Below are positions 1 to 35,400 of a stretch of DNA of 64,000 bases, piece after piece; the stretch's first letter is position 1, and each line of letters begins with the position of its first letter. A program made the position numbers and the translations under genes. The DNA comes from Rhododendron vialii (Eukaryota; Streptophyta; Magnoliopsida; Ericales; Ericaceae), in assembly GCF_030253575.1 (NCBI RefSeq), contig NC_080561.1, positions 4,269,001 to 4,333,000 of the forward strand, given 5' to 3'. Under the pieces are notes generated by a model. That model worked only from the letters and a program-made list of their open reading frames with translations. It ran no database searches and was not told the origin of the DNA.

Positions 1-300
1 TCAACCTATTACCTTATGAAGTAGTTCTGTACCAATTTATCCCGTATGGTGATGGCAAGAAAAACCCATGCTACACAGAGCTCGTGCAATTGATTGCAGT
101 GGGTGTGAGTGCAAACAAAATTATGGTGTTTACTGTTGGATCTAATTCTTTGTTTGTTTGTTTGTTTGTTTATCTACTTGCGCACAGGTTTTTGATGGCG
201 CCGTTGGTGACATTGCATGCCATCATCATGAACAAGACAAAGAAAACGGCATCACAACAAAGAAAAACGGGCATCCCAATAAGGTTGACACCTTAGCCCT
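1..300 (+). pseudogene. Glutamate receptor-like channel exon fragment, copy A1
   Basis: Two adjacent exons of a plant glutamate receptor-like (GLR) ligand-gated cation channel. Bases 1-104 translate in frame to a stretch containing [20 protein letters not shown] and then [11 protein letters not shown], which is the S1 ligand-binding lobe of plant GLRs. The exon ends at a GTGAGT donor (105). An intron with a (TTTG)n run follows, then a CACAG acceptor and an exon from 188 that reads [10 protein letters not shown], the conserved GLR continuation. After GDIA a few extra bases (around 226-230) shift the frame; the expected Asn-Arg-Thr-Lys block survives as NKTK in another frame. The remaining GLR domains (pore, S2, N-terminal LIVBP domain) are absent from the window. 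It is a non-functional two-exon fragment, and the left edge is cut by the window. Confidence 0.8.
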
Positions 301-1039
301 CGACAATCATTTGCCTTAAGACCCAAAAAGTTAGTGATCGAGGAACCAGACTCCTGACGTTATGTGCTTATCTTGTAAGTTTTATCTTTGCACTCTTATC
401 AGTAATGGTTTTTGGTTCCTAAAGAGCAAAACAGGCTTTCGCTCTGTGCAATTGAAAACCGAAGGTCTCTAGTTTTTTGATCAGCACACTAGAATAATTT
501 TCTCAGAATAAAAAAAAGAAAACAAGATTTTTTATCAATAGGACAAAGGAAGAGTACAAAGTAAAGGTTATACGCCTCAAACACCAAGAGCAATGCAAGG
601 TACCCAAACAAATTACCCAGAAAGTATCCCGAAAAGAGAAATCAAAGGTCTAGATTCGCTCAAAAGATGATCTGGACCCGCGGGGTACTTTCTCGGTAAG
701 TTTTTTGGGTACCTAGTAATAATGAAACAGCGAAAGAAACTCATCACGCCTATCAAAAAATAAAAAGAGCAGGAATAATCCCAACTAAAAGGACCGGTTT
801 GGCGGTTTAAGAGCTTCCCTGGGCTGATTTAGGAGCTATGGGTTCAATGCAAGATGTCCATCAGCAAATGTATATGACAGTTGAAGGTATAGAAAACAAG
901 TACAGGTTGCTCAGTGCAATTCAATATTCTCTAGTGGGAAGATAGGGCTCTCTTCAGGGTGTGAAATTAGCATAGCTTCGCGTTCCTACCTATATATAAG
1001 CTTGGCATGCGTTTTCTTTTTTTAACAGCAAATAGAAAT

Positions 1040-1180
1040 AGGAGAATAATAACTGGAAATTGCAGCCGCACGGTCTCTCGGTTGGAGTTGTATAAGTATT
1101 TTGTTGCAGGAAAACAAGGCACGTGACAGTAGCAGAAAATCGCAACCGGTCTCTTGGTTGGAGTTGTACAGACATGATTC
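1040..1180. repeat. Two-unit internal repeat in block A
   Basis: A unit of roughly 75 bp occurs twice, each containing a CGGTCTCT-type core followed by TTGGAGTTGTA. The same pair is present near 18950-19065 in A2 and 31985-32105 in A3, so it predates the array. It lies in the 3' flank of the PTPMT1 terminal exon. No coding function is seen. Confidence 0.5.
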
Positions 1181-2142: not shown

Positions 2143-2149
2143 CTAAAAC

Positions 2150-5311: not shown

Positions 5312-5748
5312 AACAATGGACAGTATGAATCCTGTATAATGCCATCTACTATGATCCGGTGTGAACCTAGAATTCCAAGCACATTGCACTTACATGTGGC
5401 CAAAAACACAAAAGGGTGGATTGGGTGCATAGTGGATCGTAGCAGATGGCAATTATACATTTGTGATGCACAATCCTTGGAGAGAAAGAGAGGGAGAGAA
5501 AGCACTTTTGTTTCAATCGTGAAGATGAAGTGATTGTTTCAAGAATAGAACTATTGGGAAAATGACAGGGTTGGAATACATATATAGTGGAAGAAATAAC
5601 TATTTTTAGTACCCGAAATAAGGAATACGATTGAATTGTTCAATCACGTAACGATTAGTCCTAATTCGGTGGATAGAGATCCGCAAAAGTATGGACACTT
5701 GTTCAAAAGATAAAATAGGCCCCGTTTTCTAGCACTTTTAGTTTAATA

Positions 5749-6137
5749 CTCCCTCCGTCCCATTTTCATCGTCCAATTTCGAAATACTACAAATTTAAGG
5801 GAACATCATGATTACCTTTTCAAAACTTCACATTTCCAATAATACCTTTGAGTAATTTTTCTGGCCTCAATTTGAATTTCCCACTCATGCACTTAAAGTT
5901 AGAGTCAGAAATTTTGGTGGTATCAATCCCAAAAATTGAGGCGGGTATTTTAAAGTTTGGGCAAGTCTAGAAAGACATACAGTACAAAATTTAAAATTCA
6001 AACATTCTTCTTACAAATTTGAGAGAAGGGTAAAATGGGAAAACTAAAGAATTTTGTGCCTTTGTCTTGTCAAATGGACAATCTTTTTGGGACACAAAAA
6101 AGGGGAATTTTGGATGATGAAATTGGGACGGAGGGAG
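5749..6137. mobile_element. Stowaway-like MITE, present only in A1
   Basis: A 389-bp element with terminal inverted repeats CTCCCTCCGTCCC and GGGACGGAGGGAG, flanked by TA on each side (5747-5748 and 6138-6139). These are the hallmarks of a Tc1/mariner-type Stowaway MITE. The matching place in A2 (23429-23430) has a single TA and no element. The insertion therefore happened after A1 and A2 separated. No coding capacity. Confidence 0.92.
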
Positions 6138-6139
6138 TA

Positions 6140-10989: not shown

Positions 10990-11264
10990 ATTCAAAAAAA
11001 AAAAAAGGTTTCAATTGTAATTTTTTACTTTTTAAATTCTTCTTCTCATGACAAAGCAATAATCCAAAAAAAATCGACAAAAAAACTATCAAATGCTATT
11101 TTTTTTTAATAAAGACAAAAAAATAAGCCATTTGGCTTCTTAGATCTCAATAGTTCTATCTATCTATTTTTTTTTTAATTGTTGTGAGCTTTGAGTTTAG
11201 TTTTCAATTTTTACATATATTATTCATATTCGAGAGAAGAACTTTAAAACAGAAATATCTATTA
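10990..11264. other. Truncated end of B1 and B1/B2 junction
   Basis: Poly(A) and poly(T)-rich sequence shared with 17100-17490 and 27870-28140. B1 homology stops near 11256 after a TTTAAAACAGAA tract. B2 begins at about 11260 with the ATTATGAACTAAATTC sequence that also begins B1 (6311). This is the crossover or deletion joint that removed the B tail and one A block. Confidence 0.7.
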
Positions 11265-11836
11265 TTATGAACTAAATTCAAGAGGGCCACCATTGCCGTT
11301 CAAAAAAAAAAAAAAAAAGAGGGCTACCATGTTATTGAGATTGATCTAGACATCTACATGGTAATAATCTATTCTACCATTTATTTACCAAACAATTTTA
11401 ACTTTTACTTGTGCTTATAAAAAGTTGCACCAAACACGTTTCCAACTTATTTGAAGTTATTGAATTAAGTGGATAATCAAAATAATTATAACCTACTAAT
11501 CTAACTTAGAAGTGAAAACAAACGGAGCTATACTATCTGTACAAAATCCCTAATAGTGAAATAGGTTACAAACATGCTATAGAGCACCCTAGACTAATAT
11601 TTTATCTAAGGTAAGTAGCAACACTAGGTCAAATTAATTGCAGTGCATTTCAATAGGTGAATAATAAAAGGCTGGAAAGTGAAAGACTGAGAGATGTAGT
11701 CCGTGTCAAAAAAAAAAAAAAGGAGATGTAGTCCTAATTTTAGAGCAAATCACTCCTCAAGTTCAAATTTCCCCCTTTTAATAATTAAAAAAATATTTTT
11801 TGGGGAGTTATCAAATAAAGATGACGAGACACTTAT

Positions 11837-11867
<31 letters not shown>

Positions 11868-12269
11868 GATGATCGGTAAAGGAAAAAAAAAACCTTTGGG
11901 TTAATTGTCCCTTTGGATTGAGTGATTTGGTAAGTAAAGAAAAAAGGAATTGGTAGAGTAAAAAAAATCGTGAGATTTGTTTCTCATCACATCCTTTCTC
12001 TCTCAGGATCTAACTAAGAAAATACCAAACTACAAAGTTTACGTAGTTCGCTTGAAATCGTCCTCTTTTTAGGGGATGTATTTGGACTCCTGAAAATTAG
12101 GAATGCGACTGAATTGTTCAATCACGTAACAATTAGTCCTAATTCGGTGGATCACGTACGTTGGGGGAATCATTTTTCACGAGTCTTTGTGCGAATAACT
12201 TTTCTCACTTTTCGGTAGTATCCTTAAATAAAGTAAGGACACTTGTTCGAAAGGAAAAATAGGCCTATA
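11265..12269. other. AT-rich start of B2 with (AT)n microsatellite
   Basis: Homologous to 6311-7283. A perfect (AT)n run is at about 11841-11867, where B1 and B3 have only a short TATATA. Poly(A) and poly(T) runs vary among copies. No gene is seen. Confidence 0.7.
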
Positions 12270-12400
12270 AATATTACATGCCTCAATTAAGCTTTGGTAA
12301 TCAAATGGGCCCGATTTGAAAATCTTTAATTTCTTGTTGCCACTGCTAAGTATATTCGGTGATTGATTTTCACCTGGAAAAACAACAAATCCATATGAGC
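12270..12400 (-). pseudogene. Unidentified terminal coding fragment (B2)
   Basis: Sister of the fragment at 7284-7463. It reads GSYGFVVFPGENQSPNILSS and then KIFKSGPFDYQSLIEACN, but a small change near the end removes the TAG so the frame runs on. A poly(A) expansion also replaces the upstream residues (SEYLGYVWGL in B1). Not recognised. Confidence 0.4.
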
Positions 12401-13103
12401 CCTTTTTTTTTTCATAACCCAAATATTTAGACCAGCTTACAGCCTTGATAGATTTTTTTTTTTTTTTTGAACAGCAACCTTGTTAGATTACATTTTCAGC
12501 CATACGAACTATTTTCCAATTTTCAATATTATACTTTCTTCGTTTCTTTTTGAATGGAAGAAACAGGAAAAAAAATGTTTTAGTTGGGAAATTTTAATTA
12601 CAGATGGTTAAATTAAATACTCGATTTTTATTTTGATTTTTTGTTGTTCGTGTAATTGCACTAATTTCCAATTTAAACCATATTCTTTTTTTACATTTTA
12701 AATTTCGCTCGACAGTCGAGGAAAAGTGGAAAACATAAAATTTTGACAAAAAAACCATGCACCAAAGAACAAAAGTTTCAAAATATAAAAAAAGTTGCTT
12801 TCATGTCTTGCCTCTTAATTGTTGTGAACTGGATGCTAATATTCTAGAATACTGCGACAATGAATCTATTTATGTTCTCTCAAATCTCGGGGGCCCCCCT
12901 CTTGCCTAACAGTTTCCTATTTCTCGCCCAACTATACGTCTCTGTCACGCTATTTCTCTATATAGACCGCTGCCGGTGCACCCGAAGATAGCAAAGGGTA
13001 CGTTGTTGTCTTAATTTTTTCAGCCTTTTCCTCTTCGATTACTCAATGATCTTCTATTTACAAATCTATTTGTGTTCCACGGTTTTGGCTCGTGCATTTA
13101 CAG

Positions 13104-13895
13104 GTTTCAAGGAGAAATGAAAGGCGCCATATGTTGCTGGTATAACTTTGTGATGTTTGGACTGCGCATCGTCGTTCATGTCGGAGCCATATACTGGGGA
13201 ACCAAAAATACCGAGCATGTTGTTGATTGGAAAGCTGCTTGCTGGATTCTCATGGCCGTTCTGTATGTCCTCAACCTCATATGGAGGCCACACAGTAAAG
13301 GATTTTGGACATGCTACAACGGTACAATGCTACTACTATTGATTGCAATCTTTTTTGGCTCTTTGATGGGCACGTAACGGTTGGTGCCTTGGTGGATGTG
13401 TGTGCAATCTTGGCCCAAGACGGGCTGTTTGTAATGCACATTAATTTTATTGGGCTGGATACCAATGCAGAAGCAGAATAAGACAATGTGGAGAGGGCAA
13501 GGCACCTTTCATTTTGTCTGAGGAGACAACATTTGAGCAATGCTACTGCTCCATATTAACTACCTTTACGAGAAGTTACTACGGCAATGTATGAACAAGA
13601 AGAAGAAAAAGGAACACAACCGGTGGCTTGTTCGGCAATGTGGCAATGATTAATGCGTTCACCCTACTTTGGTCCATCAACGTCATCCTCCAGATCTCAT
13701 ACAAAATCGCTTGCGTGTCTATTGAATGGATGTTGGTATTCGAATTCGATAATAGAAGAATTGGTCTATGCGATCGTAACGTTTTCCCTATCAATTGTGG
13801 CTCTCGCTGGCACCATTTGTGCAAATAGGCGCTTGCTGTTGATTTATACACGGGGTTTGTTTGATTCCAACGAACATTTGACTTGTTTGGATTAA
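13104..13895 (+). pseudogene. Decayed multi-pass membrane protein, copy B2
   Basis: Sister of 8208-9001. After the ACAG acceptor it reads FQGEMKGAICCWYNFVMFGL, then IVVHVGAIYWGTKNTEHVV, ILMAVLYVLNLIWRPHSKG and IAIFFGSLMGT. Here the TGG (Trp) that is a stop in B1 and B3 is intact, so the first 90 or so residues stay open. A short deletion before CCWYN has changed four or five residues relative to B1 and B3. After the TAA at 13375 the shifted continuation (DGHVTVGALVDVCAILAQDG) and a later hydrophobic frame to 13895 mirror B1. It is the least damaged copy, yet still frameshifted. Family unknown. Confidence 0.55.
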
Positions 13896-14764
13896 TATGA
13901 GAGTTCAAAACTCAGTTTGCAATTATACTCGAAACGTTATGCCACTGCTGTGGATCGTCTCTCACATATACAGACAGATATAGGCAATCTAAAATCACCA
14001 TTCATTTCACAACGTGTCCTCCGGCAGTCGAATTAAGTTCCCGAATCCCAACTAATTATCTCAAAACGAAGTGATCATACACGCAACTACACACGTAACT
14101 ACGTAAGCTAAAGTACAGAATTACGAAGCAGACAACACCTGCCAATCACACCATTACCTTCTGTCGAGCTCTACTTTGCATATCAGCTTCAGAAATAGGA
14201 AGCCTAGGAGGGCATCCATCAATTACACAACCAACACCACCACCATTACCTTCTGTCGAGCTCTACTTGCATATCAGCATCAGAAATAGGAAGGAAGCCT
14301 AGGAGGGCATCCATCAATTACACAACCAACACCACCACCATGAGATTCTCCAAATGTGGTAACACGGAAGTAAGTTCCAAATGTATTCCCAGCTGCCTGT
14401 ATTACTGTGAATCAAATATGAAAGAGACGAATGTTGAGTATCCAAATACTTGATCATACAGTAAGATGAGCTTAAAAGGCAAGTAGTAATAAATCTAGAA
14501 CATGTTGATCTCCATTGAGGAGAGACCAGAATTTCAATAGAAGCTGCCAAGTTCCCCTAATTGCACTTGTTCTGAGCGTGCAGTGTGCAGTAAGATGAGC
14601 TCAAATGACTCAAATATGTTGGTAAAACTAGTTTAAAATGTGTAGATGATACACTAGTTTTTTCAAATATAAGTTCCCCGAATCTATAGATGATACACTA
14701 GTTTTTTCCAGTAGCCGGCGCCCATGCTGCCATTTAAAATGTGTAGCATGTTTTGTATGGTGCA

Positions 14765-16086
14765 TGTTAGGCCCATGGTTTAATTAGATTTTGATGATAA
14801 CAAACACATCCTAATTGGGATTAAATTAGCCTATTGGGCTCAATTGGAATAATATGTTTTAATCGAACTAATTCTGCCATTACTTATTTTTATAGGGACT
14901 TATGAGCAATTCCCTTTTGTATAAGTTGTACAAGCTGTGAGATTGATACAGTGAATAACTTTCCTGACCTAGGCTTCTTCGATAAAAATAAGAACGGCAA
15001 TGGAAACTATCAAAGGGAAGAGATTTTCGGCGGATGAAGAATCAAAGTTTTTTTCGGATCAATCAAGGATTCAAATTGAAGGGATATTCTCCATCAAATT
15101 GCTATCTCCAATAGACAAGTAAATTGAAGAAGGAGAGAGATGAAGGAAAATCTCCTCCTAATTTTTAACGGCTGGAAAAGCTTTGCAAGGAAAGAAGAAA
15201 TCTGCTGGGAATACAAAGATTGAATTAAGGAGCAAATAAGGTAAGATTGTGGCTGATTTCTTGCAACGGCTAGGAGAAGAAATTCCAACGTTCAATTGGG
15301 TTTTCCACGTTAAAAAGAAAAGCAGGAGCAAGGTCGAAGAAAAACAGATCTCTTGAGCAAAAATCCCAGTGAGCTATTACTTGAAATTCTATCAGTTAAC
15401 TTTGTTCTTCATCTTGATTATTCTACACTAGGTTGAGTGTTATCTTTGAACCATATTGTAAAAGGGTTTTTCACACCCTCGTCTGAGATTGAGACTGTTT
15501 CTTCTGAGTGATTTTTTGGTAGAAAAATCATTTGGGTTTAGCTGTGACTAGCGCCGGAGTCTTAGCTAGTTGGAAGTAGATTTGGAGTAATCACTCGTTG
15601 TAAGGTTTTCTAGCACCCGCGAAGCTAGAGGTTTGTAACGATTATTGGAGATAGTGCAGCAATTCCTGAGTAGGACACTTGGGGAGTGGAGTAGGCCGTG
15701 AAGTTGCGGACCGAACCACTATAAAATCCTCGTGTTAATTTTCTCTATCCCTTACTCTTTTACTTTCAGTTTTGCTTATCATTATCGCATAAGAAAATTG
15801 GTATAATTCTGAAATCACACTTGGGGTAGAAAAGCTTGCATAATTAGTTGATTTCGTGCTTATATTGCAATCATAGAATCTGTTGAGTTGTTATATGCAT
15901 CTGCTGTGTTTCTAATCTTTGAGCTAGTTCAATCTATTAAGCTTGCTGGTGTACTTACTAGTTGAGTCGACTCAAATATTGTGCTACAGCGTTGTTTTTG
16001 TTTCACCTCGCAATTAGTTTTTTAATTTGCGAATAGTCAGTGAGAAACCCAATTCACCCCCCTCTTGGGTTGCTTTTGGACCAACA
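14765..16086 (+). mobile_element. Solo LTR, probably Copia type, in B2 only
   Basis: A 1322-bp block begins TGTTAGGCC and ends CCAACA, the TG...CA ends of an LTR. It has the typical right-end text of many plant Copia LTRs (TTCACCCCCCTCTTGGG). It interrupts sequence that is continuous in B1 and B3 (TGTAGCATGTTCCAAAG at 9760 and 26700). No internal domain or second LTR is present. A clean 5-bp target duplication is not visible, so the exact ends may be off by a few bases. Confidence 0.7.
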
Positions 16087-16487
16087 GCATTTTTATGTAT
16101 GTTCCAAAGCTTATTGCAAATGTTCTTATAGAAGCCAGTAAGTTAAACCGATACAAAGACAATTCAACAGAGAGTTCAGTGGAAGGCTGCGATCTCCACA
16201 CGTACGCATGACTTCATATGTTTGTGATCAATTTTTTAAACCTCAAACGGGTTCAGCTAAACCCCCTCACACTATGCTAGCGCCGTGCATGACCAAAAAC
16301 ATCTCCACGTACACTAGGAAAATCCGTCGAACGGGCCGGGGTAAACATCAAAGTACACAAATAGGCAAATAGATAGTTTGAGTACGTAAATCGAGCATAG
16401 ATTTGGTTTGGCAAGCACTTACGAATTCTCTTACATAGATTTTTTGGGTTTCAATCTCAACGAATTGTCAATTTCAGTTCCTAAGTG

Positions 16488-16735
16488 GGGGTGCATATGA
16501 GCTGAGCTTTATAGTGTTCGAGCTTGGCTCGTTTAGTAAACGTGCAAAAAACACGAGCTCGAGCCCATGTTAATTTACTTCACAAGCCTCTTTAAACGAG
16601 CCAAGCCAATACAAACGAGCTAAGCCAAGCTTTTGAGTCTTCAGCTCGGCCTAAAACTACTCGAGCTCAGCTCGATTACTAAGAGAGCCGAGCCGAGTCA
16701 CAAGCTGTTGAGTTCGTTTGCAGCTCTAGTTCTGA
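16488..16735. repeat. GAGCTCGGCTCG palindromic-module repeat (B2)
   Basis: Sister of 10386-10612, with extra GAGCCAAGCC modules and more point changes. It lies in the chorismate synthase intron on the minus strand. Confidence 0.65.
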
Positions 16736-16999
16736 GGTTGCTTACCATAGGACTTAGACCCGAAAAAAATTCGTGAGTGCGAAAATTGAAAGCGCGAGCG
16801 AAGAGACTATTGGAAGGATCATGTGACGAATTGAATTAATCAGAAACTCAACAAGCTTCTTGTGGCGGGATCGAGGACTAGAGAATTTGTGGGCTGGAGA
16901 CGGGAGCTTGCGGTGACCGCGCAGTTGCAAAGATCCGTAGTCCGACGAGGATTGGGCGGAGAGGAATTGTTTGGTGGAGAGGGAAGAACTCGCCATGTT

Positions 17000-19402: not shown

Positions 19403-19693
19403 TTAGGCCTTAGCAAGCACGTGCCTCTCAGTCAGCTGCCTAGGAACAGGTCCACAACCACCGGAGACTCTCAAAGAAGCGAAGAGACAGGAAAGCCTCG
19501 CAATCATTGGTTTAGACCTAGCCATTCTCGGGACAATTGCCAACTCCTTTTTGTGATCTTCATCACCAGAGCTACGGTAGCCTTCTAAATCGGCTTTTGT
19601 AATCAAAACTGCATCCCCAGAGGAGGGAGAGTGAGGAGTAGAAGTTAATCGGTGCTGCTTGCATTCTTTGACTGCCTGCTTATCAAAAACCAT
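19403..19693 (-). pseudogene. Copy of PTPMT1-like terminal exon (A2)
   Basis: A 96-residue open exon, MVFDKQAVKECKQH to HVLAKA and stop, with a TAG acceptor. It differs from A1 and from the intact gene by a few residues (for example Cys in place of Tyr in KQAVKECKQ). No catalytic exon lies beside it. Truncated duplicate. Confidence 0.85.
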
Positions 19694-19959
19694 CTATGTC
19701 AAGCCCAGAACAAAAATGAAAAGCCAAATTATTGATCTTGGATTATTTGTTACTTAACCTAAAGGTTGAAGATCTCACCTACTGAAACAAAAATTACCAG
19801 ATTTCCTAGTGTTCAAAATGTGGATTTTGAATAAAGGAATTCGACACGTTATTCAATTAAGAGTAGCTGAAATTTAGATTCAAAACGTTGAGTTAGGGAA
19901 AAGTTCCACCAAAAAATACCGAGGATACTAGTCACAAAACTTGTGAAACAGGTAACTAC

Positions 19960-20072
19960 CGTCTCCGTGAGATGCCATCGTAAGGGGGGAAGAAATAAGC
20001 TTTTGAGCAATGGAAGCAATACCCTTAGCTGAAACTTCGTCCACAGCCCCCAAGAAATGCTCCATAGGTTTC
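19960..20072 (-). pseudogene. Exon of mitochondrial processing peptidase alpha (A2)
   Basis: Same 113-bp exon as 2030-2142, with intact AG acceptor and GT donor. It reads KPMEHFLGAVDEVSAKG and then IASIAQKLISSPLTMASHGD, so it is still open. It shares the isolated position next to the PTPMT1 exon. The A3 copy lacks it because A3 switches to genuine PTPMT1 intron sequence near 32930. Confidence 0.75.
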
Positions 20073-20079
20073 CTAAAAC

Positions 20080-22159
20080 ATAAACGATATGAAGTAAGAA
20101 AACTTTTCTAAAGGTGAAAGAGAATTAAGTCTACTCTTGTATAGATTCCTTTTTCCTAAACTACTATATCTGTACAGAAGCGATAAACACACTGCACGAT
20201 TAACAAGAAAAAAACACGCATTTGGCCAATCCTCGGTCAGCAAGATGGAAATAAAACTCATCCAATGTCCGATTATGGAGACGGAGGAACCGAGAAAAAT
20301 AGATCAACCGAATTTTCTGTTTGTTTTTGATCAACAGATCTCCAAATCTATGTTACTTACCTGAAACATGGTTCATTCCAATATGAGGAAACAGGCACAT
20401 GATGCACCACAAGTGCCAAACTGTGGTCCAACATGAGGAGGCTTTCCTAAGGGACAATAGCTCCAGGTTGTTTCATGAGACATTGCAAAGAACAAAACCA
20501 CATAATTAAGAAAGTCCTGCCAAATAGTGAGGAAACTAGAATGCATTGTCTTGCTCCAAGGAACAACCTTTCGACATCATTTTTAAGCTAGTAAAAGAAT
20601 GTGGGACTAGTACATAGTCTAGCATGGCAGACGAGGGTATCTTTCACACCACAGAAGGCTAGAAAGAGCATATGCCAACAAATCATATATCATTTAGACA
20701 TAAAATAGAGCATCCAGAAACAAATTTACACGGATTTTTCTTTCTCAATACTTGCTTATATAATCCATTAGATGCAATAAATATGCATACAAAAAACACA
20801 ATAAGAGATCATTATGCATAGATGCATACTGCTAGGACAACCTTATCCAAATTTCTTTAAAGAGAATTGAGAGCCAAGTCTTGAGCATTACCTCTCTCCA
20901 TAAGTCAAAATTTGTCTACCGATATCTTCTGAGCATTACCTCTCCCCATTGCCTGAGCCGTAAACCAGCCAGAAAAAACCCACCCAATCTGCCAAATGCA
21001 CCCAAAACAGCTGCCAAACAATGAAGACGCTCCATCACCGCTATCGGAATCCGGAGAACCAACCCCTGTTGCTGCCCCAAAGCGGCAAAGAAGCCCCTCC
21101 CATGCCAGTCGACCTGTTGTCGCTGCCGTGCGCCGCTGAAATACTGCCACCATTTTTGTTTCTTAAGGGCTTGTTTCTTAAGAGAATTGCCGCAAAAGTG
21201 CGCTCTTTCTACCCTTCTGTTACACTTTTTGCGATTCTCTTGCTCGTCAAAAAAGAAAATTAGTATAAAGAACGCGAAACCTAGCGAAGTTTGAGTTCGT
21301 TTCAACAACCAAAGAACTAATTTGATTATATAGATAGATCTCGTTGTGAAAGATCTATTACTGGATAATTTATCGGTAGAGCCAAAGAGTGGTAACTGTA
21401 CAAGTTACCAAGAAAAATGAAGTAAAAGGCTCCGGTGTATAGTGAAGACCTCACCGTTTAAGAAGTAACTATAGAAACGATGGAACCCACAATTTATTGC
21501 AATAGTGCATTGCTCCCTTACTTCATTACTTTCTCTTTCATTTTCACAGTTATTTACTCCTTCTGCAAGTCACATGTTTGAAGAAAGAAGACCTAGAAAA
21601 GATTCACGTAAAATTAGATCATTTATTTTTATTGGAACTACTTCGGCGTTTGGCAAAAATTACGCTTTCCGTTTTTTGAAATACAAACTAAATCAAACGA
21701 TCTTGTTTTATCATTTAAAGGGACTCTTTGCCGTTAGTAATTTCCTTAATTTTCTAGTCGTGTGTCAACAAAGTGATACGGGTTATAGCACTTTGGAAAG
21801 ACAAAGTGACACGGGTTATAATTACTCTTTGCCGTTAGTAATTCCATGATTGGAGATAGAACTATCTAATTTTAATTCCGAGGTACCTCCAAGTAATATA
21901 AACAAAGTGATACGGGTTATAGCACTTTGGAAAGACGATTGTAAACATTACAAGTACGAACAAAAAGGTTGCAGCAAAACCCTAAGAAAGTTAATTCAAC
22001 TTCTTTAGCAAAGTGTATCACTTCAGGGCGTGGAACTTGTAGACCAAGCACCCGCCTAAAGTTGGTATATGAGCACATACACAAGTCGTGGAATAAGAGT
22101 TGCAAATATATTTAAGGGAAGTGATTCAATAACAGAAATACTACTTACAATAATAACGT
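20080..22159. other. Block A2 spacer; no gene seen
   Basis: Homologous to 2150-4600 but lacking the segment equivalent to 3204-3778 (joint near 21153). A short GATACGGGTTATAGCA motif is locally reiterated around 21774, 21808 and 21910. No supported gene or RNA. Confidence 0.5.
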
Positions 22160-22290
22160 CACTACAAGAAATTACACATTCGGCAACCAAATACCGCGAC
22201 TAATGAAATATTTTAGTTGCTGAAATCTAACACTTAGGCAACCAACAGAAAATGTTGTTGCTAAAACTAAATACTTAAGCGACCAAAACA
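22160..22290 (+). mobile_element. CACTA-type terminal fragment (A2 only)
   Basis: CACTACAAGAAAT at 22160-22172 is a typical CACTA (En/Spm) terminus. It is followed by repeated GGCAACCAA and GCGACCAAA subterminal motifs. The matching right terminus is not seen. A1 lacks this piece, joining GACCAA at the 22042 equivalent directly to GACCAA at the 22281 equivalent, a 239-bp difference with shared hexamers at the ends. The transposon body is presumably the region holding the foldback arms. Confidence 0.6.
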
Positions 22291-22293
22291 TAC

Positions 22294-22990
22294 CTGCGTT
22301 ATTACAGTGGCTGAGTTCTTTTCATCTCTATTATCTGAGAAGTGGAGTGTTCTAAAAAAAATCTAACTTCCTATCGTTCTAGCAGCGACATCAGTATTTC
22401 CGGCATCTATATACCGACAAATGTCAACTCCTGGTTTCTCATTGGAACTTATTGCCCAGTTATTATCTACCAGTTCTTAAAGTATAGCTTGCCCACCCAT
22501 CAATACCTTCTTTCTTTATCCCTCACAACAGGGACCGCTGTTACACATTTGGCGACCAAATACCGCTACTAATGAAATATTTAGCAGCTGAAATCTAACA
22601 CTTAAGCAGCCAACAGAAAATGTCGTCGCTGAAACTAAATACTTAGGTGACCAAAACATATTTTGTCGCAAGAAGATTAAAAATAATTGGCAACCAACTC
22701 AAAACTTAGTTGCCGAAACACCAATGCTGGAAGAAGGTCATGAGATTGATTCCCTGTTGTGAGGGATAAAGAAAAAAGGTATTGATGGGTGGGCGAGCTA
22801 TACTTCAAGAACGGGTAGATAATAACTGGGCAATAAGTTCCAATGAGGAACCAGGAGTTGACATTTGTTGGTATATATATGCCGGAAAAACTGATGTCTC
22901 TGTTAGAACGATCGAAAGTTTGATTTTTTTTAGAACACTCCACTTCTCAAATAATAGAGATGAAAAGAACTAAACTACTATAAAAATGCA
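22294..22990. mobile_element. Foldback element (A2)
   Basis: Sister of 4611-5311. Left arm 22294-22530, right arm 22755-22990, loop with GGCGACCAAA repeats. No coding capacity beyond chance frames that run through the arms. Confidence 0.75.
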
Positions 22991-24584
22991 AATAATGGAC
23001 AGTATGAATCCTATATAATGCCATCTACTATGATCCGGTGTGAACCTAGGATTCCAAGCACATTGCACTTACATGTGGCCAAAAACGTAAAAGGGTGGAT
23101 TGGGTGCATAGTGGATCGTAGCAGATGGCAATTATACATTTGTGATGCACAATCCTCAGAAAGAAAGAGAGGGAGAGAAAGCACTTCTATTTCAATCATG
23201 AAGATGAAGTGATTGTTTCAAGAACAGAACTATTGGGAAAATGACAGGGTTGGAATACATATATAGTGGAAGGAGAAATTACTATTTTGAGTACCCAAAA
23301 TAAGGAATGCGATTGAATTGTTCAATCACGTAACGATTAGTCCTAATTCGGTGGATAGAGATCCACGAAAGTATGGACACTTGTTCAAAAGATAAAATAG
23401 GCCCCGTTTTCTAGCACTTTTAGTTTAATATCTATTATAGGTTTATTTGCTTAAAAAAGTTCATAAATGGTATTTGGTATTAAATGTGAATAATTACATA
23501 TTTAGTTTTCTGAGTTTATTTCACCAGAACAATTAATTATTTTAAGTTTCAATTTGTAACTTTATTTGTTTATTTAAAGATGTAAAAATAAATTTTATTA
23601 TGAACTAAATTCAAGAGGGCTACCATTGCCGTTCAAAAAAAAAAAGAGGGCTACCATGTTATTGAGATTGATCTAGACATCTACATGGTAATAATCTATT
23701 TTACTTTTTAACTTTTACTTGTGCTTATAAAAAGTTGCACCAAACACGTTTCCAACTTATTTGAAGTTTTTTAATTAAGTGGGTAATCAAAATAATTATA
23801 ACCTACTAATCTAACTTAGAAGTGAAAACAAACGGAGCTATACTATCTGTACAAAATCCCCTCACATTTGATAGTGAGATAGGTTACAAACATGCTATAG
23901 TGCACCCTAGACCAATTTTTTTTTTTTTATCTAAGGTAAGTAGCAACAGTTGGTCAAATTAATTGCAGTGCATTTCAATAGGTGAATAATAAAAGGCTTG
24001 AAAGTGAAAGACAGAGAGATGTAGTCCTAATTTTAGAACAAATCACTCCTCAAGTTCAATTTTCCCCCTTTTAATAATCTGTAACCATAGTTCTCCCTTT
24101 TCAAGATTAAAAAAAATATTTTTTGGGGATTTATCAAATAAAGATGACGAGACACTTATATATAGACGATCGGTAAAAGAAAAAAGAAAAAAAAAACCTT
24201 TGGTTTAACTGTCCTTTTGGATTGAGTGATTTGGTAAGTAAAGAAAAAGGAATTGGTAGAGTTTCTCACAAATAAAAAAATAAAATAAAACAAATTCATT
24301 TCTCATCACATCCTTTCTTAGGATCCAACTAAGAAAATGCCGAACTACAAAGTGTACGTAGTTCGCTTGAAACCGCCCTCTTTTTAGGGGGCCGGTGTAT
24401 TTGGACTCCTGGAAATTAGGAATGCGACTGAATTGTTCAATCACGTAACGATTAGTCCTAATTCAGTGGATCAAGTACATTCGTGGAATCATTTTTCACG
24501 AGTCTTTGTGCGAATAACTTTCCTCACTTTTAGTAATATCCCCTTAAAAAAAGTAAGAACACTTGTTCGAAAGGTAAAATAGGC
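22991..24584. other. A2/B3 transition; no gene seen
   Basis: Continuous homology to 5312-7283 apart from the missing MITE. AT-rich with homopolymers. It includes the empty MITE target at 23429-23430. Confidence 0.55.
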
Positions 24585-24760
24585 CTATAAATTGCATGCC
24601 TCAATTATGCTTTGGTAATCAAATGGGCCCGATTTGAAAATCTTCAGTTTCTTGTTGCCACTGCTAAGTATATTCGGCGATTGATTTTCACCTGGATAAA
24701 CAACAAATCCATATGAGCCTAGTCCCCAGACATAACCCAAGTATTCAGACCACCTTACAG
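24585..24760 (-). pseudogene. Unidentified terminal coding fragment (B3)
   Basis: Sister of 7284-7463 with the TAG stop kept. It reads WSEYLGYVWGLGSYGFVVYP and ends in IIEACNL. One change gives Arg in place of Ser just before the Trp. Unrecognised; a weak resemblance to transporter C-termini is an inference only. Confidence 0.4.
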
Positions 24761-25260
24761 CCTTGTTAGATTTTTTTTTTTTGAACCGCAACCTTGTTAG
24801 ATTACATTTTCAGCCATACTAACTATTTTCCAATTTTCAAAATTATGCTTTCTTCGTTTCTTTTTGAATAGAAGAAACAGGAAAAAAATGTTTTAGTTGG
24901 GAAATTTTAATTACAGATGGTTAAATTAAATACTCGATTTTTTATTTTGATTTTTTGTTGTTCGTGTAATTGCACTTTAAACCATATTCTTTTTTTACTT
25001 TTTAAATTTCGCTCGACAATTGAGGAAGAGTGGAAAACGTAAATTTTTTTGACAAAGAGATCAAAAAACCACCAAAGAACAAAAGTTTCAAAATATAAAA
25101 AAGTTGCTTTCATGTCTTTGCCTCGTAATTGTTGTGAACTGGATGCTAATATTCTAGAATATTGCGACAATGAATCTATTTATGTTCTCTCAAATCTCGG
25201 GGGCCCCCCTCTTGCCTAACAGTTTCTTATTTCTCGCTCAACTATTATACGTATCTCTCA

Positions 25261-25422
25261 CTCTATTTCTCTATATAGACCGCTGCCGGTACACCCGAAG
25301 GTAGCAAAGGGTACGTTGTTATCTTAATTTTTTCAGCCTCACTCTATTTCTCTATATAGACCGCTGCCGGTACACCGGAAGGTAGCAAAGGGTATGTTGT
25401 TGTCTTAATTTTTTCAGCCTTT
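25261..25422. repeat. 81-bp tandem duplication (B3)
   Basis: Same duplication as 7971-8132, units at 25261 and 25342. Shared by B1 and B3, not by B2. Confidence 0.85.
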
Positions 25423-25497
25423 TCCTTTTCGTTTACTCAGTGATCTTCTATTTACAAATCTGTTTGTGTACGACGGTTTTGGCTCATGCGTTTACAG

Positions 25498-26160
25498 GTT
25501 TCAAGGAGAAATGAAAGGCACGCCATATGTTGCTGGTATAACTTTTGTGATGTTTGGACTGCTGATCATCCTTCACGTGGGAGCTATATACTGGGGAACC
25601 AAAAATACCGAGCATGCTGTTAATTGGGAAGTTGGTTGCTAGATTCTCATGGCCGTTCTGTATGTCCTCAACCTCATATGGAGGCCACACGGTAAAGGAT
25701 TTTGGACATGCTACAACGGTACAATGCTACTGCTACTGATTGCAATTTTTTTTGGCTCTTTGATGGGCACGTAACGGTTGGTGCCTTGGTGGATGTGTGT
25801 GCAATCCTGGCCCAAGACGGGTTGTTTGTAATGCACATTAATTACATTGGACCGGATACCAATGCAGAAGCAGAATAAGACGATGTGGAGAGGGCAAGGC
25901 ACCTTTCATTTTGTCTGAGGAGACAACATTTGAGCAATGCTACTGCTCCATATTAACAACCTTTACAAGAAGTTACTACGGCAATGTATGAACAAGAAGG
26001 AAAAAAGGAACAGAACCGGTGGTTTGTTCGGCAATGTGGCAATGATTAATGCGTTCACCCTACTTTGGTCCATCAACGTCATCCTCCAGATCTCGTACAA
26101 AATCGCTTGCGTATCTATTGAATGGATGTTGGTATTCGAATTCGATAGTAGAAGAATTGG
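25498..26160 (+). pseudogene. Decayed multi-pass membrane protein, copy B3
   Basis: Sister of 8208-9001. ATG at 25511 opens MKGTPYVAGITFVMFGLLII. The TAG at 25640-25642 is shared with B1, so that nonsense mutation predates the split of B1 and B3. The same frameshifted downstream frames follow. A deletion of about 345 bp removes the sequence equivalent to 8870-9215, joining GAAGAATTGGT directly to ACAGAATTACGAA. Family not recognised. Confidence 0.55.
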
Positions 26161-26871
26161 TACAGAATTACGAAACTAAAGTACAGAATTACGAAGCAGA
26201 CAACAACTGCCATTCACACCATTACCATCTGTTGAGCTCTACTTGCATATCAGCTTCAGAAATAGGAAGCCTAGGAGGGCATCCATCAATTACACAACCA
26301 ACACCACCACCATGAGATTCTCCAAATGTGGTAACACGGAAGTAAGTTCCAAATGTATTCCCAGCTGCCTGTATTACTGCGAATCAAATATGAAAGAGAC
26401 GAACGTTTGAGTATCCAAATACTTGATCATACAGTAAGATGAGCTTTTGATCATATGTTGATCTCCATTGAGGAGAGACCAGAATTTCAATAGAAGCTTG
26501 CCAAGTTCCCCTAATTGCACTTGTTCTGAGTGTGCAGTGTTTTTGACATTTTCAACCCAGGAGAATTTTAGCCCTATTGGCTTAAAATCACAAAAAATAA
26601 GACGCTACTCAAATCATCAAATCATGTTGCTTTTCTTGTGCTCAAATATGTTGGTAAAACGTGATACTGATACCAGTAGCCCATGCTGCCATTTAAAATG
26701 TGTAGCATGTTCCAAAGTTTATTGCAAATGTTCTTATACAAGCCTGTAAGTTAAACTGATACAAAACCAATTCAACAGAGTTCAGTGGAAGGCTGCGATC
26801 TCCACACATACGCATGACTTCATATGTTTGTGATCAATTTTTTAAACCTCAAAGGGTTCAGCTAAACCCCC

Positions 26872-27090
26872 CGAAGCTAATCAAGTTGTGGATTGCCTTG
26901 CTTGTCTGGGGTCACAACAAGAAGATGAAGAATTGTTTGTCATTGAGGCTATTCCGTTTGCGGCGAGGGAATTTGTCCTTGCGGATTCCGTGGGGGTTGG
27001 CCATCTTATTTTAGAATGGTTTGTATTTGTTACTCGTAGTATGACTCGCTTTCGCTGGTGTTATATAATATTTCCATTTGACAAAAAAAA
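26872..27090 (+). mobile_element. 5'-truncated LINE insertion (B3)
   Basis: Orthologous to the insertion at 9928-10149: same 5' truncation point, same RNase H reading (VADCLACLGSQQEDEELFV) and the same AACCCCC flanks. Shared insertion by descent. Confidence 0.85.
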
Positions 27091-27273
27091 AACCCCCTCA
27101 CACTATGCTAGCGCCGTGCATGACCAAAAATATCTCCATGTACACTAGGAAAATCCGTCGACTGGCCGAGCATAGATTTGGTTTGGCAAGCACTTACGAG
27201 TTTTTTTATATAGAGCGATAGAGAGATTTCAGGTTTCAATCTCGAGGAATCGTCAATTTCAGTTCCAAGTAGG

Positions 27274-27500
27274 GGTGCAAATGAGCCGAGCTTTATAGTA
27301 TTTGAGCTCGGCTCGTTTAGTAAGCGTGCAAAAAACACGAGCTCGAGCCCAGGTTAATTTACCTCACAAGCCTCTTTAATTTAAACGAGCTGAGCCGAGC
27401 TTTTGAGTCTTTAGCTCAGCCTAAAACTACTCGAGCTCGGCTCGACTACTAAGAGAGCCGAGCCAAGTCACAAGCAGCTGGGTTCATTTTGCAGCTCTAG
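27274..27500. repeat. GAGCTCGGCTCG palindromic-module repeat (B3)
   Basis: Sister of 10386-10612 with the same spacing of GAGCTCGGCTCG and GAGCCGAGC modules. It lies in the intron of the chorismate synthase fragment. Confidence 0.65.
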
Positions 27501-28450
27501 TTCTGAGGTTGCTTACCATAGGACTTAGACCCGAAAAAAATTCGTGAGTGCGAGAATTGAGAGCGCGAGCGAATGGACTATTGGAAGGATCATTTGACGA
27601 ATTGAATTAATCAAAAATTCACCGAGCTTCTTGAAGCGGGATCGAGGACTAGAGAATTTGAGGGCTGGAGAAGGGAGCTTGAGGTGACCGCGCCCTTGCA
27701 AAGATCGGTAGTCCGACGAGGATTGGGCGGAGAGGAATTGTTTGGTGGGGAGGGAAGAATTCGCCATGTTCTTGACCGACCTCAGCCCAACAGAAATTAG
27801 ATACCGTACTAGAGAAAAAGCGGAAAAAACTACAATCGAAACCAAATTAGTTTATCGGTTTATTTGTCTTTATTCAAAAAAAAAAAAAAGGTTTCAATTG
27901 TAATTTTTTACTTTTTAAATTCTTCTTCTCATGACAAAGCAATAATCCAAAAAAAATCGACAAAAAAACTATCAAATGCAAGGTTTTTTTGAATAAAGAC
28001 AAAAAAATAAGCCATTTAGCTTATTAGATCTCAATAGTTCTATCTGTCTTTTTTTTTTTAATTGTTGTAAGCTTTGAGTTTAGTTTTCAATTTTTACATA
28101 TATTATTCATATTCAAGAGAAGAACTTTAAAACAGAATATTACGATCAAAAGCACAAAATAAAAAAGTTCGCTTACGACAGTAAAATAATTTGAACTTTT
28201 TTTTTTCAATTTTGATTTATATTTTTATGCTCTTTCTATTATTCTCCTCGAGATAAATATCTATCCTCCCGGCATTAATAACTATCTTCCCAATTCAAAC
28301 ACCTTTTTTGAATTATGATCTCCTTTCAAATAATCTCTTTCACCTGAAAAAAGAAAGAAAGACTTGTACCCATTATCCTAAGGAAAATAAGTAGTTATTT
28401 TTTGAATAAATATTTATTTTTTAAATTAAATGTGATGTATTATAAGAGAA

Positions 28451-30986: not shown

Positions 30987-31065
30987 TGACTTGTCTAGTA
31001 AGACATGAAATAAAAGTAGTTAAAAAATAAGAAACTTGACGGAACGTATTCAAAGCTACTGCATG

Positions 31066-31400
31066 TCAACCTATTACCCGATGAAGTAGTTCTGTAACAA
31101 TTTATCCCCCCTATGGTGACGGCAAGAAAAACCCAAGCTACACAGAGCTCGTGCAATTGATTGCAGTGGGTGTGAGTGTAACAAAATTATGGTGTTTACT
31201 GTTGGATCTAATTCTTTGTTTGTTTGTTTGTTTATCTACTTGCGCACAGGTTTTTGATGGCGCCGTTGGTGACATTGCATGCCATCATCATGAACAGGAC
31301 AAAGAAAACGGCATCACAACGAAGAAAAACTGGCATCCCAACAAGATTGACACCCCAGCTCTCGACAATCATTTGCCTTAAGACCCAAAAAGTTGGTGAT
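31066..31400 (+). pseudogene. Glutamate receptor-like exon fragment, copy A3
   Basis: Third copy of the two GLR exons, lying just beyond the 3' end of the intact PTPMT1-like gene. The first exon is damaged here: a TAA interrupts the LPDEVVL stretch and extra C bases near 31105-31112 shift the frame. The GTGAGT donor (31172) and the [10 protein letters not shown] exon start (31250) remain. This position next to PTPMT1 is probably where the fragment sat before the array formed. Confidence 0.75.
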
Positions 31401-32436
31401 CGAGGAACCAGACTCCAGACGTTATGTGCTTATCTTGTAAGTTTTATCTTTACACTCTTATCGGTAACGGTTTTTGGTTCCTAAAGAGCGGAACAGGGCG
31501 CTTTGCGCAATTGAAACCAAAGGTCTCTAGTTTTCTGATCCGCACACTAAAATAATTTTCTCAGCATAAAGAAAAAAAGAACAGGATTTTTTATTAATAG
31601 GACAAATGAAGAGTACAACGTAAAGGTTACACCTCAAACAAGAGCAATGCAAGGTACCCAAACAAATTACCCAGAAAGTATCCCGAAAAGGGAAATCAAG
31701 GGTCCAGATTCGCTCAAAAGATGATCCGGACCCGCGGGGTACTTTCTCGGTAAGTTTTTTGGGTACCTAGCAATAATGAAAAAAACAGCAAAAGAAACTC
31801 ATCACACCTATCAAAAAAATAAAAAGAGCAGGAATAATCCCAACTAAAAGGACCTGTTTAGCGGTTTAGGAGCTATGGGTTCAATGCAAGATGTCCATCA
31901 GCAAATGTATGCGTTCCTACCCATCTATATATAAGCTTGGCATGCGTTTTTTTTTTTTAAACAGCAAACAGAAATAGGAGAATAATAACTGGAAATTGCA
32001 ACCGCACGGTCTCTTGGTTGGAGTTGTATAAGTATTTTGTTGCAGGAAAACAAGGCATGTGACAGTAGCTGAAAATCGCAACCTATCTCTTGGTTGGAGT
32101 TGTACAGACACGATTCAGAAAATGCACAACATGTATCTTTGATGACAGCTTGGGCCTGGAAATGGCCTGACAACACTTCACGAGGAACTTGATTTCAAAA
32201 TCGCAAAATATAAACTGATGCAAAGAGTCATCTACAGATAGATTTGCAGGTTGTACTGTGCAATCATTACATAACGATTCAACTGGGCAACAAATCAAAT
32301 TCCCCTCTTGGCAATTATTCAGCATCTTTCTCTCCGTTAAACACAAGATTACCGGAAACATGGAAATAGGTTACTTTGCTTTATGCTATTTCCACCAACA
32401 CTGTACAAGCAACCGCCTTAACTACTACGGATGCCT

Positions 32437-35400
32437 TTAGGCCTTAGCAAGCACGTGCCTCTCAGTCAGCTGCCTAGGAACAGGTCCACAACCACCGGAG
32501 ACTCTCAAAGAAGCGAAGAGACAGGAAAGCCTTGCAATCATTGGGTTAGACCTAGCCATTCTCGGGACAATTGCCAACTCCTTTTTGTGATCTTCATCAC
32601 CAGAGCTACGGTAGCCTTCTAAATCGGCTTTCGTAATCAAAACTGCATCCCCAGAGGAGGGAGAGTGAGGAGTAGAAGCTAATAGGTGCTGCTTGTATTC
32701 TTGGACTGCCTGCTTATCAAAAGCCATCTATGTCAAGCCAAGAACAAAAATGAAAAGCCAAATTATTGATCATGGATTATTTGTTACTTAACCTAAAGGT
32801 TGAAGATCTCACCTACTGAAACAAAAATTACCAGATTTCCTAGTGTTCAAAATGTGGATTTTAAATAAAGGAATTCGACACATTATTCAATTAAGAGTAG
32901 CTGAAATTTAGATTCGAAACGTTGAGTTTGGAAGCCGTGTCATGACAGATTTGGAATAAGTATATACCATGAATGATTCTAAAACCTTATCATGCTAAGT
33001 ATTGTAGGCATACAAGATCCTAATAACTAGACCTCATAAATTATTGTTGAAATTAAAGCATCTAGTCTGTTCATTTGTAATTCAAATCTATCCAAACAGA
33101 CCCTTGAAGTTCCAGTGCAAGAAAACCTTACCAAAAATACCTTAGTACACCATTCCCCTCCTTCCTCTATTATTTTCTTTCTAAAATCGTTGAGAATGAA
33201 ATGAAACCATTTCACCCCAAAATCCATGCAGTACGAATGCACTTCAAATACGCTCCACATTTTCTTGATCACTTTTGCCAGTTGGGAAAGGTTCCAAATT
33301 GACGTAGTGTACAAAATGATTTCATAAAATCTCCTTCGACTTTACATTACTAGATAGTGATCTGATTACTTACCTTCCACTGTGACGGAGCCAAAAGCAC
33401 TCGAGGTCGTCTAGAACGCACGTATTCCAGGGCATCAGCAGGAGACATCTGCTTATACTCCACCTAAGAAGTGTGAAAACAAATGAGTAATATCTATTTC
33501 AAGATGATCTACCAGGAGTTAAGGCACTTAGAGCAACCAGACAGGCAAATTGTAACCACAGGACATTACAAGATAGCAAAGCACAATGGTTGTGCTCCTT
33601 CCCCGCCCAGCTTTACAGTGGACATAAGTAGTCCTCCCACAAGATGAATTCTCTGCATCCAAAAAAGATGAAAATCATACATCATCATTCATCAAGCAAG
33701 AGAGTTTATGATCCAAGTAGCTGAAACAAGTTTAAAGAAGCTCCACTTACTGTGAATGAAATCAACAGCCCGATTAATATCGACAAATGAAGGAGCAAAG
33801 AGGTAGTCTCTCGTGGGAATGACCAAATGGTCTATCCCATGGGCCTACAGCCAGGGAAAAAAATAATGAGGATCGAAACTAGAAAAACGTAAATTAAACC
33901 TATATGAATCCACCTTCAACATACTTATACTCTCATCATAAATATTGTTCAGAGAGGAAACAGAAGCCCTGCTATGCAAATTTACCGCAAAAGCCTTCAA
34001 GTATCAGTACCAGATATTTGCTTCTCACACTGTGATTAAAGACAGCTGATAGATCGTTTCCCACCAAGAAACCAGCCTGTCATGCCTGCACCCTCCCCAA
34101 CCAAATCCTAATGAAGAGGGTTACTCTTGCTACCCCATCAACAAGAGAAGATCTTAGCATTTGAGTATTGATGTCTCCAGCCCACCCCTGAAGACTTTAA
34201 ACTGAAAAAAGCACACATCTTTTTTGCGAAGTAGAAAATAAGAGTCGGCTATAGTAGGATACTAATATCCAGGTAAATGTCAGCTCCTATTTGTTATATC
34301 AGGTACACAAAGCAGGGCAATGCCAACTAGTGTGTCCTCTTATTCCTGATGTAATAAGCCAATTGTTAAAACATCGAAGTCCAAGAATGCAAATGCATCA
34401 TCATAAATGCTACAACTAGTCAACGGCATACCACCCGGGAAAAAAAAAAAACCAAAAAAAGACTGACAAGGGCAGAAATGACTCACATGGTACAATGAAG
34501 TCGAAACCAATGTTTCATAAGGCTCATTAAGGGTGATGACACCACCAACACCAAGTAGCTTCAAACGTGGAACATCCTTAGGGAATGGAACCGCCCCCAA
34601 CAATAGATACTGATTACAAACCAAAAAAGAATAAAACAGGAATCAATAATCTTGTTCCCTTTAAGCTCTCTTTCTATATCCGTAACAAGAACACTGACAA
34701 AATTAAATGTAACGTAGTTGCATTGGTCAAATTCTAATAGAGGTTTTTATTTTTCTCTAATCTACTATAACAGAATTCCAAGAGTCAAATACTCCAATGT
34801 CCTTTATTGTGAGAGGACAAAGTCAAACCCAGCCACGCTTGTTTTGACTTGTACTGACTTATACGGTGGTTGTGGCTTGAGGTCATTCATAGACACTGAA
34901 AGGACGTCTCTAACTCTGCATCCATAAAGTCCAATGATACTTGTTGACTGGAGAAAAAGTCGGATGCTTAAATTACAGGGATCAAAGTAGAGCATGAGCC
35001 CAAGCTGCCCAACAAGTACGAGAATAGTGTGTACCTTCCCTCGATCTACATGTCTTTGTAGTTGGTCCTCCTATTATTGTTTCTTGGCTTCGAGGTGAAG
35101 TCTTATCACATTTCAGATACTCTAGCGTCTAGAATTTCCCAAATCGATTGTGATCACAAATGAATAATGATCTCCACATGGTATTCCCCAATGTGCAGGG
35201 CATAGCATCCTGATGATTTGTGTTTTCCATGTAATAAAAGCACATGAGGCAGTTATAACTGGTTATGAGATCAACCATTATGCTTATGAGGATGCCTACA
35301 CTCTGCACACCGGGAAAAATTCTCAGAGAACAAATCTCAATCCATCTTGGAGCTTCAAGACGCCAGAGTAGCCTCCAAGCCAAGCAATCCTAAACAGACA

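Follow-up and report, generated by a model that had tools for sequence, protein, structure and literature searches.

A tandem array of gene pieces beside a PTPMT1 gene in Rhododendron vialii

Extent and organization of the array

The left part of a 64,000-nucleotide stretch of the Rhododendron vialii genome (hereafter the window; C5:4269001-4333000, where C5 denotes contig NC_080561.1 and other contigs are labelled in the same way) belongs to a head-to-tail array of pieces of unrelated genes. The array spans C5:4187893 to C5:4301931 (114 kb) and is composed of ten units and a terminal stub. It carries pieces of genes for a GLR channel, the phosphatase PTPMT1, mitochondrial processing peptidase alpha (MPP-alpha), chorismate synthase (CS) and a membrane protein. 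We consider it probable (about 0.8) that a mosaic formed locally and was amplified through tandem duplication and unequal recombination, and that the array is largely neutral, no function being needed to explain it.

The right end of the array lies at window position 32,931. Self-comparison of positions 1-32,931 gave direct repeats over the whole interval, among them 1-3204 against 17893-21153 at 94% and 6138-8871 against 23429-26161 at 97%, in agreement with a preliminary description made from the window alone, which had reported a tandem array at 1..32930. That description had the array beginning at window position 1. Comparison of the 150 kb to the left of the window with a reference unit placed the true start 81 kb beyond the window start, at C5:4187893. 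The 114 kb contain no N bases. Related sequences were searched for throughout the genome (532.6 Mb, 13 contigs).

The order of the units is S1 L2 S3 L4 S4 L5 S6 L7 S8 L9, followed by the stub d10; the window holds L7, S8, L9 and d10. Units were assigned to type L or S from their membrane-protein exon, and by this exon the two types alternate along the array in 10/10 copies. The unit L9 (window 17800..28450, + strand) served as reference and was numbered 1-10651. L units cover most of the reference, and S units vary in content: S1 begins at reference 2092 and includes an MPP-alpha exon, S3 and S6 begin with the GLR piece, S4 begins at reference 6408 and S8 at 5787. L7 (1..11254, +, with its first 94 bases left of the window) carries the GLR piece, the last PTPMT1 exon, the MPP-alpha exon, the membrane exon and CS exons 2 and 1. 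The start of S8 (11253..17814, +) is equivalent to 6299 in L7, and this unit holds only the membrane and CS pieces, without GLR, PTPMT1 or MPP-alpha. The stub d10 (30987..32931, +) has a GLR piece and the PTPMT1 3' end, and the array ends there inside the last PTPMT1 intron.

Matches to PDB and Pfam, contiguity with a flanking gene and relatives on C7 bear out the five gene pieces proposed in the preliminary description. Its statement that each unit carries all of them is true of L7; it fails for S8, and a PTPMT1 exon is missing from all five S units. The absence of any complete gene likewise holds within the units, which contain pieces only, but not at the right edge, where the interval 32437-32724 forms the last exon of a PTPMT1 gene that is apparently intact. 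A candidate for the sixth, unnamed exon of that description is an insertion of ~219 bp with a poly(A) tail, described below.

A tRNA search returned 0 genes, a plasmid collection compared with 1-8000 gave no match, and Pfam searches of 1-4982 found 0 families in 6/6 frames. No title listed in a full-text literature search concerned this array, and most subscription papers lie outside the reach of that search.

Flanking genes and the joint between units

Two of the five pieces, PTPMT1 and MPP-alpha, are, as judged from the sequence, truncated neighbours that continue into the flanks of the array. At the right edge, the PTPMT1 gene has six exons on the - strand (32437-37427, ATG at 37427; exon bounds placed by eye), all open. 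Its last exon lies within the array and the other five at 33.4-37.4 kb. Among PDB entries, the joined exons are matched best by 3rgo ("Protein-tyrosine phosphatase mitochondrial 1"). The PTPMT1 piece of the array corresponds to the last, C-terminal exon, contiguous at the right edge with the rest of the gene; copies with an open frame lie at 1503..1790 in L7 and 19403..19690 in L9, both on the - strand. We also observed an intronless, decayed PTPMT1 copy on another contig, a processed pseudogene ~3.3-4.4 kb into C13:11777001-11787000, where the last-exon sequence directly follows the other exons. The last-exon identity of the PTPMT1 piece is based on contiguity with the gene, the 3rgo match and this C13 copy.

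The MPP-alpha piece was identified by PDB 8zno (E 5e-9) and other PDB matches. Its penultimate exon is found at 2019..2146 in L7 and at 19949..20076 in L9, on the - strand, and the last exon at C5:4187824-4187889, just outside the left edge of the array. Of ~1.9 kb of MPP-alpha homology in total, 0.9 kb is outside the array. The left-flank tract is an inverted partial copy (~84% with gaps, Kimura two-parameter distance (K2P) 0.10) of an MPP-alpha gene at C5:4136237-4140936, 47 kb from the array, which shows exon matches spread along its length and is apparently complete. A source on C3 was also considered and discarded, since the gene 47 kb away is closer. The preliminary description had explained the mosaic by capture of gene pieces. 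Capture fits the CS piece (relative on C9), the GLR piece (C6) and the membrane exon (C7); the PTPMT1 piece is instead the end of the adjacent gene, and the MPP-alpha piece is an inverted partial copy of a nearby gene, cut by a duplication breakpoint.

The first unit starts at reference 2092 and the stub ends at 2098. The internal joint between these positions (reference 2092-2098) fuses both outer ends of the array, the MPP-alpha copy of the left and PTPMT1 of the right, and its sequence is identical in L2, L5, L7 and L9 (4/5 L units; L4 not read). The two edges share a microhomology, AGTTAGG on the left and AGTTTGG on the right (6/7 bases, AGTTnGG). Edges fused at AGTTnGG in these four units are the pattern left by one tandem duplication with microhomology.

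Elsewhere on the contig, ~14.5 kb left of the array, C5:4172953-4173413 holds another partial mosaic, in which a GLR piece (another exon) adjoins a piece of the PTPMT1 3' region. Two places 8 kb apart, C5:2076649-2077208 and C5:2084564-2085175, match at ~80-86% the sequence that separates the GLR piece from the PTPMT1 piece.

Pieces with relatives on other contigs

The CS piece matches Pfam PF01264 (E 6e-10) and PDB 7rca, and holds a transit-like exon 1 followed by intron 1 and exon 2. Its relative is at C9:34650813-34652374, where five stretches of the CS Pfam family are found. Exon 1, resembling a plastid-transit N-terminus, lies at 10717..10888 in L7, 16829..17000 in S8 and 27600..27773 in L9. 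Exon 2 has an open frame in L7 (9262..9420, with splice-like ends by eye) and L9 (26225..26383), and in S8 (14157..14411) it shows an internal partial duplication and frame breaks; all six copies are on the - strand. The GLR piece is GLR3.3-like (PDB 6r85, E 6e-4) and comprises parts of two exons and the intron between them, with a relative at C6:588698-588954 inside a gene with a receptor domain. On the + strand, it is found at 1..243 in L7 (the end of an exon, the intron and the start of the next exon, this second exon being out of frame), at 17871..18131 in L9, and at 31109..31186 in d10, the last interval being the extent of the protein-level match. The membrane-protein exon had no Pfam match reaching the cut-off, and has two related places on C7. 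Compared with the C7 relative, the copies in L7 (8230..8582) and L9 (25520..25872) have an in-frame stop and a frameshift, and that in S8 (13125..13475) a frameshift, all on the + strand.

Intron loss in the membrane piece, suspected from C7:32716375, was rejected, because no gap interrupts the other C7 copy and the one at C7:32716375 has the look of an insertion. A processed (retro) origin of the pieces was rejected, because introns are retained in the CS (intron 1) and GLR pieces; the membrane piece is uninformative in this respect. The boundaries of the pieces, where inspected, are sharp, with no visible transposon end.

K2P to the relatives is 0.09-0.10 for MPP-alpha, 0.11-0.13 for CS exon 2 and introns, 0.14 for GLR and 0.18-0.19 for the membrane piece. 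The simplest order of arrival would be membrane, GLR, CS and MPP-alpha, followed by amplification. These distances bear also on the possibility that a block of neighbouring genes was doubled in a whole-genome duplication and that the pieces are its remains after fractionation. Introns are kept and all pieces lie between two genes, as such a remnant might show; however, the best relatives are on C6, C7, C9 and C5 itself, with no single collinear block, and the divergence differs between pieces (0.09-0.19). We regard this as the least probable of the explanations considered.

Other parts of the unit also have relatives. Reference ~5340-6790, a module without a recognised gene, resembles a cluster at C5:3.66-3.93 Mb, and reference ~6799-7312 resembles C11:13772723-13773295. 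The former cluster (C5:3663822-3928461), inverted and ~0.3-0.5 Mb off, gave many matches of 64-93% to reference ~5340-6790. In a 5-kb sample of it (C5:3753001-3758000) no Pfam family reached the cut-off in six frames, and a genome search with this sample was dominated by a dispersed repeat.

Divergence of the unit types

Trees and distances were computed for the separate modules of the unit, from units with the whole module: 8/10 units for module C2 (L4 and S4 out) and for C1/X (S3 and S4 out), seven for D, seven for A1, five for A2, and six array copies with the native gene for M. The split between L and S has 100/100 support in both trees holding several units of each type (C2 and C1/X). Mean K2P over modules is 0.023-0.041 between L units, 0.034-0.045 between S units and 0.057-0.083 between types, that is, 0.02-0.08 overall. 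Two unit types, a graded divergence and defined end points agree with the unequal tandem amplification of a mosaic, as the preliminary description had it.

Several units form close pairs: S1 and S6 (K2P 0.015-0.022), S3 and S8 (0.024, in the C2 module), and L5 and L9 (0.015-0.022, in the A modules). L5 and L9 also both lack an insert at reference position 3354. The close pairs and this common absence suggest the doubling of a multi-unit block. Counting against block doubling, S8 is nearer S4 (0.020) than S3 (0.035) in the D module, and the closest L pair in the C1 and C2 modules is L7 and L9. The M tree, with L2 beside L4, and the C2 and C1/X trees, with unresolved L units, also speak against it. 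Exchange between units is likely.

Later insertions and inverted repeats

Individual units carry insertions of several kinds. The segment 28451..30986, between L9 and d10, does not belong to the unit and is a later Helitron insertion on the - strand. Its 5' end is TCTATATTATAAA, its 3' end is a hairpin followed by CTAG, and it lies between an A and a T; the S8-L9 joint provides the matching empty site. It has a full-length match at C9:778310-780869 (96%) and belongs to a family found across the genome. In L7, a Stowaway-like miniature inverted-repeat transposable element (MITE) with 31-bp terminal inverted repeats and a TA target occupies 5747..6137 and is absent from L9. Two units have elements with long terminal repeats (LTRs): in L4 the element interrupts the PTPMT1 exon (LTR identity 99.3%), and in S4 the membrane exon (99.7%, with a TGTAT duplication). 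The poly(A)-tailed insertion of ~219 bp, with a short target duplication, lies in CS intron 1 of L9 (about 26872..27090); L2 and L7 have it as well, while S3, S8 and the CS gene on C9 lack it.

The LTR, Helitron and MITE insertions, each specific to one unit, and the poly(A)-tailed insertion are evidence against an assembly artefact, in which haplotypes or collapsed repeats would have been set side by side. Some units are only ~2% apart (S1 and S6; L5 and L9 in the A modules), as expected of such an error. However, LTR, Helitron and MITE insertions are marked by target duplications or, in sister units, by matching empty sites, the unit joints repeat precisely, the mean divergence shows a gradation between 2 and 8%, and the 114 kb are free of N. 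An artefact is, in our judgement, exceedingly improbable.

The mosaic could also have been carried by a transposon, a Helitron or a Pack-MULE, after exons of several genes had been collected in it, with tandem multiplication afterwards. Consistent with this, the pieces come from at least three unlinked genes, CS and GLR keep intron sequence, and a multi-copy Helitron family is present both in the array and in the genome. The ends of a carrier were nonetheless not found. Helitron ends (5' TC, 3' hairpin and CTRR, A-T target) were not detected around the mosaic in the window, which was the region scanned; scanning both of its strands for a hairpin with CTRR gave 6 hits, namely the inserted Helitron, a weak candidate at 23337 (-) inside the array and four outside the array. 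No inverted repeats enclose gene pieces in L7, S8 or L9, as they would in a Pack-MULE, and target duplications at piece edges were checked by eye only. On the results of the end scan and the lack of enclosing inverted repeats, both kinds of element were rejected as carriers. Furthermore, of the places scored, this array alone has the pieces together, and those of PTPMT1 and MPP-alpha are contiguous with the flanking genes. We consider transposon capture of the mosaic unlikely.

Inverted repeats without gene pieces do occur in the units. That in L7 (4608..5311) has arms of ~240 bp and a spacer of ~216 bp, and its counterpart lies at 22295-22990. Among the places scored, the arms are matched only in this array. 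At C5:4189401-4190679 (S1) and C5:4210636-4211723 (S3) we observed an inverted repeat with longer arms (~340-520 bp) and a short spacer.

Decay of the pieces and possible small RNAs

The gene pieces look like decaying pseudo-exons. All ten copies of the membrane piece have a frameshift relative to the C7 relative, and the five L copies a stop as well. At one site the L copies have an extra base, absent from the S units and from the C7 relative; a one-base deletion in the S membrane exons was considered for this difference and dismissed, because the C7 relative also lacks that base. Full-length copies of CS exon 2 are broken in five of eight cases. Among variable codons of the PTPMT1 last exon, 9 changes are replacements and 3 silent (5/6 copies; L4, where the exon is split, was left out), with no excess of silent change. 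The pieces appear to show no sign of constraint, on small numbers.

The array and the presumed parents have exact 21-mers in common: 201/271 of the native PTPMT1 last exon, 79/126 of CS exon 2, 6/152 of CS exon 1, 33/58 of the MPP-alpha last exon, 7/94 of its penultimate exon and 36/171 of the GLR exon, against 0 in two reversed-sequence controls. Small-RNA action of the array is therefore possible, but unsupported, as common 21-mers are expected of copies of this age and duplication alone suffices to produce them. The array might accordingly be pictured as a regulatory locus, the source of small RNAs or chimeric transcripts directed at PTPMT1, MPP-alpha or chorismate synthase, and several of its units do contain inverted repeats; a review describes genes captured by maize transposons as reservoirs of small interfering RNAs (PMC13317346). 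Nevertheless, the inverted repeats hold no gene pieces and, among the places scored, their arms have matches only in the array, the PTPMT1 copies lack an excess of silent change, and the shared 21-mers fall to a few for CS exon 1 and the MPP-alpha penultimate exon. A regulatory role of this kind seems quite improbable. Its more specific form, a trans-acting locus in which 21-24-nt RNAs from the inverted repeats and antisense pieces would jointly tune PTPMT1, MPP-alpha and chorismate synthase, all three housekeeping genes, mitochondrial or plastid, with the copy number of the array setting the dose, we judge highly improbable.

Proposed history of the array

We favour the local, largely neutral origin stated at the outset, and propose the following series of events. 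A mosaic would have been built up on C5, flanked by the housekeeping genes MPP-alpha and PTPMT1, its pieces recognised by homology and their order suggested by divergence: the 5' part of a CS gene (C9-like), a GLR piece (C6-like), a membrane exon (C7-like) and, probably last, the inverted partial MPP-alpha copy. One tandem duplication, whose end points can be read in the array and whose mechanism is suggested by the microhomology, would then have fused the last introns of PTPMT1 and of the inverted MPP-alpha copy at AGTTnGG, so that further L units would run from one gene into the other. Subsequently, two diverged types, L and S, as distinguished in the trees, would have reached ten units as L-S sets through unequal recombination and exchange. 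Stowaway-like, Helitron and LTR-retrotransposon insertions then entered single units, in which they are now observed.

Several observations weigh against this account, or against parts of it. Unlike CS exon 2, CS exon 1 is at K2P 0.23-0.28 from its relative, and the order of arrival is uncertain because the pieces are short and of different sequence kinds, with wide errors and relatives that may not be direct sources. S3 includes the MPP-alpha last exon and consequently arose through another joint. As for the units, L2 groups with L4 in the M tree but with L7 in the A1 tree (87/92), the C2 and C1/X trees do not resolve the L units, and L5 carries an S-type CS exon 2, being a chimeric unit. Observations on the register of the sets are mixed: the types alternate in 10/10 copies by the membrane exon, yet L5 is chimeric, unit contents are variable and module pairings discordant. 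With regard to decay, CS exon 2 is open in 3/8 copies (L2, L7 and L9) and the PTPMT1 last exon in 6/6, including the copy that the LTR element of L4 splits. Finally, the completeness of the MPP-alpha and PTPMT1 genes is apparent, as judged from exon matches in the former and from open exons with bounds placed by eye in the latter.

Other features of the window

Several features lie to the right of the array. A 440-codon open stretch with leucine-rich repeats is found at 48845-50167 (+). An exon similar to HAD class B acid phosphatases (56222-56695) lies within 50531-58693, flanked by inverted diverged repeats (78-80%). The sole Rfam match is the small nucleolar RNA snoR100 (RF01219), at 59773-59880 (+), outside the array. 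Positions 40780-42712 contain interleaved direct repeats of ~350 and 520 bases, 88% alike.

Comparison with known systems

With head-to-tail units longer than 1 kb, high identity and a mean K2P of 0.02-0.08, the array can be classed as a tandem segmental duplication. Genome change of this kind is known, and the locus offers a well-resolved case of it, in which no hint of a new function has emerged so far. A single 114-kb stretch records both the formation of a mosaic and its amplification, with both breakpoints, the unit types and the later insertions readable. It also illustrates that exons that seem captured may be merely the truncated ends of flanking genes, which is seen only beyond the array. 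The locus is a possible test case for whether young tandem arrays of gene fragments feed small RNAs against intact parents.

In satellite higher-order repeats, diverged unit types are multiplied as sets, and units of the same type are closer to each other than to their neighbours. The array resembles them in having two diverged types, each more alike across sets; in contrast, it lies between genes and has just ten units, each made up of several kb of ordinary genomic DNA. In the segmental-duplication mosaics of primates, duplicated pieces of unrelated genes gather at a single site and undergo further duplication there, whereas here the organism is a plant, one locus was studied and the duplication is in tandem.

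Capture by Helitrons and Pack-MULEs, as presented in a review (PMC13317346), offers a further likeness, in that pieces of unlinked genes, introns included, stand next to one another in either orientation. Unlike such captures, the mosaic described here has no element termini around it and is found at one locus among the places scored, and two of its pieces are contiguous with the flanking genes.

The nearest described case that we found is the maize P1-wr cluster, which consists of eleven 12-kb repeats arranged head-to-tail and framed by chimeric genes (Goettel and Messing 2009, PMC2686159). For that cluster, end joining and unequal recombination were invoked, and the repeats were ordered by their own variants. 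The Rhododendron array shares with P1-wr, as there described, the head-to-tail arrangement, the chimeric framing, the proposed end joining and unequal recombination, and the ordering of repeats through variants of their own. The two differ in that each P1-wr repeat contains a Myb gene, while the array reported here is made of gene pieces only, in two types of unit.

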